NCBI GenBank assembly: GCA_020847635.1
Contig: JADLBQ010000093.1
Location: forward strand, 1 to 32,086
Length of the DNA stretch: 32,086 nucleotides
Direction of reading: 5' to 3'
From: Bacteroidia bacterium
GTDB lineage: Bacteria; Bacteroidota; Bacteroidia; AKYH767-A; OLB10
Position numbers and translations under genes: made by a program. The notes under the pieces were generated by a model, which saw only the letters and a program-made list of their open reading frames with translations, did not search any database and had not been told where the DNA came from. Of this stretch, positions 10,728 through 12,478 are shown in pieces. Numbering within the stretch: the first letter of the stretch is position 1; each line of letters starts with the position of its first letter.

Positions 10728-10768
10728 TTCCCTGTGATGACACCTCATCCGGATCTTATAACAGGGAA
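10728..10768. terminator. inverted repeat between convergent recA and mgtE
   Basis: TTCCCTGT (10728-10735) and ACAGGGAA (10761-10768) are perfect inverted arms. Inside, GATGA (10736-10740) pairs with TCATC (10745-10749) around CACC, extending the left arm without a break. The right arm overlaps the last codons of mgtE. There is no U-tract on either strand, so a bidirectional terminator is only a possibility. Confidence 0.35.
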
Positions 10769-12135
10769 CCTCTCATCAAGATTGCCGCAACACTGAAATA
10801 AATAATCAGACCTGTTACATCAACAGCTGTTGCTACAAAAGGTGCTGATGCTGTAGCAGGGTCAACACCAAACCGTTTCAGAATAATCGGAAACATAGAC
10901 CCAATTAAAGTTCCCCACATTACTACACCAACCAGTGTAATTCCGATTGTAACAGCAAGAATCAGCCAATGCTCACCATAAGTTGAATTAACTAGTTGCC
11001 AGATTGCAATTCTGAGAAAACCAATTACACCCAAAATCAATCCTAACAACAGTCCTGATATGACTTCTCTTCTCATAATTTTCCACCAGTCGCGTAGGGT
11101 TACTTCACCCAAGGCTAGAGCCCGGATAATCAGCGTTGCTGCCTGAGATCCTGAATTGCCTCCACTTGAAACAATCAGAGGAATAAATAAAGCAAGAACA
11201 ACAGCACGAGCAATTTCATGTTCAAAATGGGCCATTGCTGTTGCTGTCAGCATTTCCCCGATAAACAGAACAATCAGCCAGGTTGACCGTTTCTGCACCA
11301 TTGTAGCTAAGGTAGTTTGCATATAAGGCATATCCAATGCTTCCACAGCACCCAGTTTCTGAATATCTTCCGTGTTTTCCTCTTCAGCCACTTGTAACAC
11401 ATCATCAATCGTCACAATCCCCAATAATGCACCGGCAGCATCGGTTACTGGAAGGGTTGACTTGTTATGGGTTTTAAATTCTTCAATGGCTACTTCCTGA
11501 TCATCTGCAACATTCAATGAAATAAATTTTCCGTCAGCTATTTCTTTGATAATAGCTGCAGGTGATGATAAGAGTAACTGCCGGGCTGTTATGTCATCCA
11601 CCAGTCGTCCTTTTTCATCAACAATAAAGAATGTATCCAGTGACCCGATTGCCTGACCGTTTTCACGGATATTATCGAATGCCTGCTGAACGGTCCAGTC
11701 AGTTTTCAACGCAACATAATCAGGTGTCATGAGCCGGCCGATCGAATTCTCAGGATAGCCCAGTAATTTGAGCGCAATCAATCGCTCGCTTTGAGTTAAT
11801 ACTTTCAGGTGTTTATTAATCAGATCTGCAGGAAGTGATTCAAGAATTGAGGTACGTACATCGGCAGCAATATCATTCAGTAATAAAGCGACTTGCCGGT
11901 GAGGTAATACGTCAAGCAGCCTTTTTTGAATTTCAAGTTCTATTAATTCAAATACGCGGGCGGCCTTATCGCGACTCATACAACGAAAAGCGAAGACCTG
12001 TTGATCTTCGGGGATTTCACTAACGATTTCAGCTAATTCAGAAGTCAGCATATTTTCAGTATGCTCTTTAACAGGATCTCTGTTACCGTAACTGAGCAAT
12101 TGAATAAATTCCTCTTTTTGCAAGGTGTGCTCCAT
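10756..12135 (-). CDS. mgtE: magnesium transporter MgtE
   Basis: MgtE is an inner-membrane Mg2+ channel gated by its own cytoplasmic domains. From the ATG at 12135 it is 459 residues, normal for the family. Residues 1-130 form the helical MgtE_N domain. A pair of CBS domains covers about 135-255 (SIGRLMTPDYVALKTDWTVQ, then TLPVTD and GIVTIDDVLQV). A transmembrane domain of about five helices runs from 285 to the end. It carries SSGGNSGSQAATLIIRALA (about 323-341) and DPATASAPFVATAVDVTG, where D439 matches the pore aspartate. A TTG at 12219 would give a longer frame, but it lies at the end of the riboswitch and adds an atypical Cys-rich peptide, so it was rejected. An M-box riboswitch and a -7 box lie upstream, so expression should fall when Mg2+ is plentiful. 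Confidence 0.96.
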   Translation of the reverse strand: MEHTLQKEEFIQLLSYGNRDPVKEHTENMLTSELAEIVSEIPEDQQVFAFRCMSRDKAARVFELIELEIQKRLLDVLPHRQVALLLNDIAADVRTSILESLPADLINKHLKVLTQSERLIALKLLGYPENSIGRLMTPDYVALKTDWTVQQAFDNIRENGQAIGSLDTFFIVDEKGRLVDDITARQLLLSSPAAIIKEIADGKFISLNVADDQEVAIEEFKTHNKSTLPVTDAAGALLGIVTIDDVLQVAEEENTEDIQKLGAVEALDMPYMQTTLATMVQKRSTWLIVLFIGEMLTATAMAHFEHEIARAVVLALFIPLIVSSGGNSGSQAATLIIRALALGEVTLRDWWKIMRREVISGLLLGLILGVIGFLRIAIWQLVNSTYGEHWLILAVTIGITLVGVVMWGTLIGSMFPIILKRFGVDPATASAPFVATAVDVTGLIIYFSVAAILMRGSLL

Positions 12136-12227
12136 CTTCAGAAGATTTAAACCCGGATTAACTGTAGCGTGAGGTGGATTACACCAGCAACAGCAAATGA
12201 ATGACAATTCATTGCCCAATGCTCCGA

Positions 12228-12391
12228 TGCTCCTCGTTTAGCTTTAGTTTCGGAAGACTTATCCGGATTTTATCATCCGGAAGCTGCATTATGCCAAGCC
12301 TTATCCCGGCCAAGCCTGTTCAACCCATTGGCGTGTCTCCACATTTCCGGGCAGCAGCATTTTTTCATCCGGTAACCTCACCTAACAAGCA
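12228..12391 (-). promoter_or_regulatory. M-box (ykoK leader) Mg2+ riboswitch
   Basis: Read on the minus strand, this leader follows the M-box consensus nearly block by block. GTTAGGTGAGG begins at 12386, then come GCTGCTGCCC, AGACACGCCAATGGGT, GAACAG, GATAAGG and AATGCAGC, and it ends with ACTAAAGCTAAACGAGG. P1 can form between TGCT (12391-12388) and AGCA (12231-12228), and a P2-like pairing between CCGGAT and ATCCGG. A perfect 7-base local hairpin (arms 12275-12281 and 12262-12268) could compete with P2. M-boxes bind several Mg2+ ions and switch off Mg2+ transporter genes, and mgtE is the gene 93 bases downstream. No U-rich terminator was found between the aptamer and the ATG, so control of translation is possible. 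It was recognised by eye from remembered M-box sequences, not by a covariance search. Confidence 0.9.
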
Positions 12392-12410
12392 CAGAACCGA
12401 ATTCTCTTGG

Positions 12411-12418
12411 CAAAGATA
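12411..12418 (-). promoter_or_regulatory. -7 promoter box for the M-box/mgtE transcript
   Basis: On the minus strand this reads TATCTTTG, an exact TAnnTTTG match. It would start transcription near 12404, about 13 bases before the first paired base of the M-box. A TTG lies 15 bases further upstream, slightly close for -33. Confidence 0.6.
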
Positions 12419-12448: not shown

Positions 12449-12478
12449 AAAAAAAAAGTCCTGATTATTCATCAGGAC
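12449..12478 (-). terminator. intrinsic terminator after the T9SS type A gene
   Basis: On the minus strand, a perfect 8-base stem (GTCCTGAT / ATCAGGAC, 12478-12458) with a five-base loop is followed at once by nine T residues. It lies 24 bases after the stop codon at 12503 and insulates the mgtE promoter. Confidence 0.88.

Follow-up and report, generated by a model that had tools for sequence, protein, structure and literature searches.

The DNA analysed here, called the window throughout, is a stretch of 32,086 nucleotides from a Bacteroidia bacterium, and its minus strand carries a complete M-box (ykoK) riboswitch aptamer in the leader of the Mg2+ transport gene mgtE. The aptamer is ordinary; it is the expression platform that is unusual. 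It is proposed that this M-box turns mgtE off at high Mg2+ and that its readout is most likely translational, a model that we hold to be probable because no intrinsic terminator follows the aptamer. The computed basis of the proposal consists of the aptamer, its position before mgtE, a conserved promoter element, a terminator-free spacer and, at the level of the group, a bias in the accessibility of the start codon.

The aptamer, its gene and its promoter

The transcription unit and its upstream boundary comprise the following features:
10756..12135, minus strand: mgtE, encoding a 459-aa MgtE-type Mg2+ channel/transporter, with an ATG start and no Shine-Dalgarno sequence (Pfam MgtE_N, CBS, MgtE)
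12223..12396, minus strand: M-box (ykoK) Mg2+ aptamer, full length (RF00380, 131.5 bits, E 1.4e-29, model 1-169)
12262..12281, minus strand: the M-box's small 3′ hairpin, lengthened to 7 bp (TCCGGAT/ATCCGGA; aligned to the RF00380 consensus hairpin, 7 bp in the predicted fold)
12411..12418, minus strand: -7 promoter element TATCTTTG of the Bacteroidota TANNTTTG type (from sequence; same element in eight family members and locus L073)
12449..12478, minus strand: intrinsic terminator at the end of the upstream gene, GTCCTGAT-gaata-ATCAGGAC-T9 (from sequence; stem listed on the opposite strand in the terminator scan)

The Rfam M-box model (RF00380; Infernal, Rfam 15) matches positions 12396-12223 of the minus strand over its entire length (1-169 of 169), and a chance match is excluded because the score is 131.5 bits (E = 1.4e-29), where the gathering score is 44. 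That this RNA is an M-box is beyond reasonable doubt. RF00380 is the sole Rfam family above threshold in the entire 32-kb window (Infernal, Rfam 15), the 2.58-Mb genome holds a single copy, and a control search of 14 genomes gave matches in two, B. subtilis and L. lactis. The core blocks are conserved and non-standard pairs are few in the RF00380 alignment, while aptamers across the genera of the window's family are 76-89% identical; by analogy with its class, the aptamer would be expected to bind Mg2+. A sequence-only reading of the window had recognised an M-box by five conserved blocks on the minus strand, all of which were located there, and the covariance search that it called for returned the full-length match. 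It had also pointed to a 7-base hairpin at 12262-12281 that could compete with helix P2. The hairpin exists, but its role as a competitor does not hold, because the covariance model aligns it as the small 3′ consensus hairpin of the M-box itself, longer than usual.

As that reading also had it, the leader lies directly before mgtE: the aptamer occupies the 5′ leader, and the ATG at 12135 follows it after 87 nt and opens a protein that matches Pfam MgtE_N, CBS and MgtE. The same arrangement, an M-box directly preceding mgtE, is found in all eight M-box-bearing members of the family. Shine-Dalgarno sequences are rarely used in Bacteroidota. The exact -7 box reported just upstream was recovered at 12411-12418 on the minus strand, where TATCTTTG fits the Bacteroidota consensus. 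It lies 14 nt upstream of the window aptamer, and its distance is given as 19-25 nt before the aptamer across all eight family members and L073. On its own TANNTTTG is uninformative in the window, where it is not enriched (23 found vs 33.6 expected); its evidential weight derives from the position before the aptamer, conserved in all eight family members and L073. No good match to a -33 TTTG was found upstream of the window's -7 box, and transcription would be expected to start near 12404. Upstream again, the terminator at 12449-12478 separates the M-box unit from the preceding gene, and since that gene ends with a normal U9 terminator, the window's lineage employs intrinsic terminators.

Expression platform and start-codon accessibility

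Three features of the region between aptamer and start codon bear on the mechanism:
12136..12222, minus strand: 87-nt expression platform without an intrinsic terminator (no terminator-like site; comparative opening-energy test)
12193..12215, minus strand: local hairpin GCAATGAAT-TGTC-ATTCATTTGC, no U-tract (from sequence; in predicted folds)
12170..12178, minus strand: TCCACCTCA, whose predicted OFF partner is the start region TGAAGATGGA; it is also complementary to the aptamer 5′ strand GTGAGGT, a putative ON pairing (from predicted folds)

The consensus scan of the window found no terminator-like site between aptamer and ATG (12136-12222), in line with the earlier observation that no U-tract terminator separates them. 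Comparison with the leaders of related mgtE genes carries this further: a hairpin followed by a U-tract is absent from seven of the eight leaders in the window's family, and the eighth, L007, has one weak candidate in which the middle of the stem pairs poorly.

Under the proposed mechanism, plentiful intracellular Mg2+ would stabilise the aptamer and its closing helix P1, and with P1 formed the 87-nt spacer would be available to fold over the region of the start codon; in the window leader the OFF contacts would be TCCACCTCA on TGAAGATGGA and GGTGT on ACACC. When Mg2+ is absent, P1 would open and the freed aptamer strands would pair with parts of the spacer, the start codon would be accessible and MgtE would be made. 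OFF-switching of mgtE by Mg2+ would follow from the behaviour of the class, and we infer both this polarity and the exact switching helices.

Accessibility was measured as the free energy needed to open positions -12..+12 around the ATG in two states, the spacer plus ORF alone (P1 formed) and the same preceded by the final 24 nt of the aptamer (P1 3′ strand freed), and compared with 100 dinucleotide-shuffled spacers. In seven of the eight leaders of the family, and likewise in L073, the start region is harder to open by 0.8-4.4 kcal/mol when P1 is formed:
Window leader: 2.5 kcal/mol; as high in 6/100 shuffles (about p = 0.06)
L002 (sister species): 0.8 kcal/mol; 43/100, no accessibility effect
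L003: 3.5 kcal/mol; 3/100
L004: 2.3 kcal/mol; 7/100
L005: 1.3 kcal/mol; 14/100
L006: -1.2 kcal/mol, the wrong direction; 88/100
L007: 3.4 kcal/mol; 9/100
L008: 4.4 kcal/mol; 4/100
L073: 3.6 kcal/mol; 1/100

In a test fixed after the minimum-energy folds of the family leaders had been viewed, and with folding models that leave out Mg2+, tertiary contacts and co-transcriptional kinetics, the genus-averaged Stouffer p was 0.009 for the family, falling to 0.0006 when L073 was added. Eleven control leaders (nine Bacteroidales, two Firmicutes) gave a mean z of about 0, and family and control leaders differ (Mann-Whitney p about 0.01). In a linker variant that adds the aptamer 5′ strand, the effect was gone for the window leader. 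The suggestion that switching may act on translation is thus favoured at the level of the group; for the window leader alone the support is marginal (6/100 shuffles) and falls short of proof.

The pairings themselves vary between species. Predicted OFF pairs in the window (12178-12175/12134-12131, 12172-12170/12140-12138 and 12185-12181/12128-12124) are not conserved in the sister species L002. The window spacer has ACCTCAC complementary to GTGAGGT of the aptamer (spacer vs 5′ strand duplex z -1.5) and the sister species sets GTAACCT against AGGTTAC (z -2.7), a likeness which suggests that the spacer may invade the aptamer 5′ strand in the window's genus. RNAduplex z-scores for pairing of the spacer with the P1 strands or with the start region were significant in genera g1 (5′ strand) and g4 (start region) and weak overall. 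Spacers of the family are too diverged to align, and no shared sequestering helix was seen across genera or in L002. It can be put forward tentatively, at somewhat less than even confidence, that in a clade of Bacteroidota the M-box acts on translation alone, occluding a start codon that has no Shine-Dalgarno sequence, with switching helices that each genus has built anew from other sequence around a constant aptamer.

The main rival to a translational output, which we judge unlikely, is Rho: the Mg2+-bound, untranslated leader would be terminated by Rho, alone or after translation has been blocked. The window leader, lacking an intrinsic terminator, would suit such a model, repression of translation could itself bring Rho into play, and a published precedent joins an M-box to Rho in M. 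tuberculosis pe20 (PMC12810186). Composition does not support it, however: over the whole window spacer C stands at 0.22 and G at 0.21, with no C>G bias and, by this measure, no C-rich, G-poor rut-like segment, and in most family spacers the bias is slight, L006 excepted.

An intrinsic terminator that escaped recognition, for example the hairpin at 12193-12215 lacking a U-tract, is distinctly improbable. Termination is the canonical mechanism of the class and of Bacteroidales M-boxes, most complete leaders of which have a canonical terminator (CCCTTC...GAAGGG-U5-9) in a layout where the P1 3′ strand AAGGGGCA leads into TGCCCCTTC...GAAGGGG-U5-9. The window hairpin, by contrast, is AT-rich, is followed by CTGTTGCTGG rather than U and is not conserved in the sister species; moreover, the normal U-tract terminator just upstream (12449-12478) indicates that the lineage uses the usual kind. 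A shade less probable still is a decayed or non-switching M-box, with mgtE no longer regulated. The M-box is missing from several family members and the expression platform is not conserved, but the aptamer is intact and full length, its core blocks and few non-standard pairs tell against decay, and so does its 76-89% identity across genera. Control through a short uORF, for which there is a parallel in the uORF that follows the M-box in M. tuberculosis (PMC12810186) and an open frame of 21 codons (MNCHSFAVAGVIHLTLQLIRV, 12212-12147, minus strand) in the window leader, is rejected as very improbable on the finding that no ORF is conserved across the family leaders: the frames vary in length, start and sequence, and L006 lacks one altogether. 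The spacer of the sister species (L002) has a longer open frame that overlaps the mgtE start.

Distribution and history of the M-box

M-boxes in Bacteroidota are rare and patchy, which answers the question of frequency that the first reading had left while confirming the setting it described. They were found in 8/24 genomes of the window's family and in none of 18 genomes from the order's other families; among 395 genomes sampled in the class and 395 in the phylum there were five and two, respectively, and these are lower bounds, since few candidates were scored per genome. A pattern scan of GTDB contigs gave 36 loci, about 30 of them additional, with several being window-family contigs already found by the genome search. 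These loci are mostly Bacteroidales from soda-lake sediments, a habitat read from isolate names such as CSSed, together with a few other Bacteroidota, one Ignavibacteria, three MAGs labelled Firmicutes and two archaeal MAGs. Most of the Bacteroidota M-boxes found belong to MAGs with names (CSSed, T1Sed, B1Sed) that point to such sediments, and life in soda lakes, where free Mg2+ is expected to be scarce, may explain the patchy distribution. The presence of M-boxes in the phylum is not new, because a metagenome survey of 2007 had already assigned one YKOK element to Bacteroidetes/Chlorobi (PMC2211319).

The window MgtE shares 54-77% identity with orthologues in its own family, 49-55% with family f2 and 41-45% with families further away in the order, irrespective of an M-box, and only about 30% with the MgtE of M-box Bacteroidales. 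Joint transfer of mgtE and M-box into the family is rejected on two grounds: the family's MgtE clusters with MgtEs of the same order that have no M-box, and its identity to other M-box MgtEs is about 30%. In M-box-less relatives an orthologous mgtE lies behind a short leader without an aptamer. From these relationships it follows that mgtE is native and that the riboswitch came or went around it. On the MgtE tree, genes with and without an M-box are intermingled within the family, and M-box presence needs four changes over all rows, which makes for a patchy history of losses or repeated gain; the tree would be compatible both with a single ancestral gain followed by losses and with several separate gains.

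Beyond the phylum, M-boxes occur in Methanomassiliicoccales archaea, at L025 (PUJZ01000080.1), L032 (SKGM01000014.1) and L085-L090. Strong matches (104-155 bits) are present in 6/147 genomes from the archaeal order to which L025, a Methanomassiliicoccaceae MAG, belongs, with L085-L090 among the loci. At L025 and L032 the M-box sits between an SHMT gene and mgtE; L025 looks truly archaeal because genes for the RFC small subunit and Cdc6 are found there too and its aptamer is preceded by a TTTATATA-like box A. By eye, the ORF downstream of other archaeal M-boxes resembles an NRAMP-type transporter gene at L089 and a P-type ATPase gene at L090. A limited literature search found no report of archaeal M-boxes. 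At L040 (4636-8000), L009 and L016 an M-box with an intrinsic terminator precedes an OprB-family porin gene (Pfam match for L040 only), which suggests an outer-membrane Mg2+ route under M-box control; in L040, an Ignavibacteriae MAG, a gene for a binding-protein-dependent ABC permease follows the porin gene.

Comparison with known systems

The range of a well-studied metal sensor now takes in an uncultured family of Bacteroidota, and this phylum would couple one and the same aptamer to two outputs, a terminator in Bacteroidales and probably start-codon occlusion in the window's family. With one translational M-box reported and Shine-Dalgarno sequences rarely used in Bacteroidota, this leader could be a convenient system for asking how a riboswitch blocks initiation without masking a Shine-Dalgarno sequence.

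By early 2026 only that one translational M-box had been reported, M. tuberculosis pe20, which D'Halluin et al. present as the first (PMC12810186); if the translational model is true, the window would hold a second, independent and Shine-Dalgarno-free example. Like the window, pe20 lacks an intrinsic terminator and occlusion of the translation start has been proposed for it, but its control is through a Shine-Dalgarno sequence and a uORF with Rho involved, whereas the window has no Shine-Dalgarno sequence, no conserved uORF and mgtE as its direct target (PMC12810186). The B. subtilis ykoK/mgtE M-box (RF00380) resembles the window along the full length of the model, in the sequence as well as the structure of the aptamer, and in its mgtE target, and differs in its intrinsic terminator, which is not present in the window's 87-nt, U-tract-free platform. 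Closer to home, the M-box-less genera g2, g5, g9 and g10 of the window's family have an orthologous, vertically inherited MgtE behind a short leader without an aptamer. The soda-lake Bacteroidales (L010, L014, L021, L042 and others) belong to the same phylum and have an M-box before mgtE whose aptamer is 69-83% identical to that of the window's family, but there it is coupled to a canonical terminator and mostly to a Shine-Dalgarno-like GGAGG, and their MgtE is about 30% identical.
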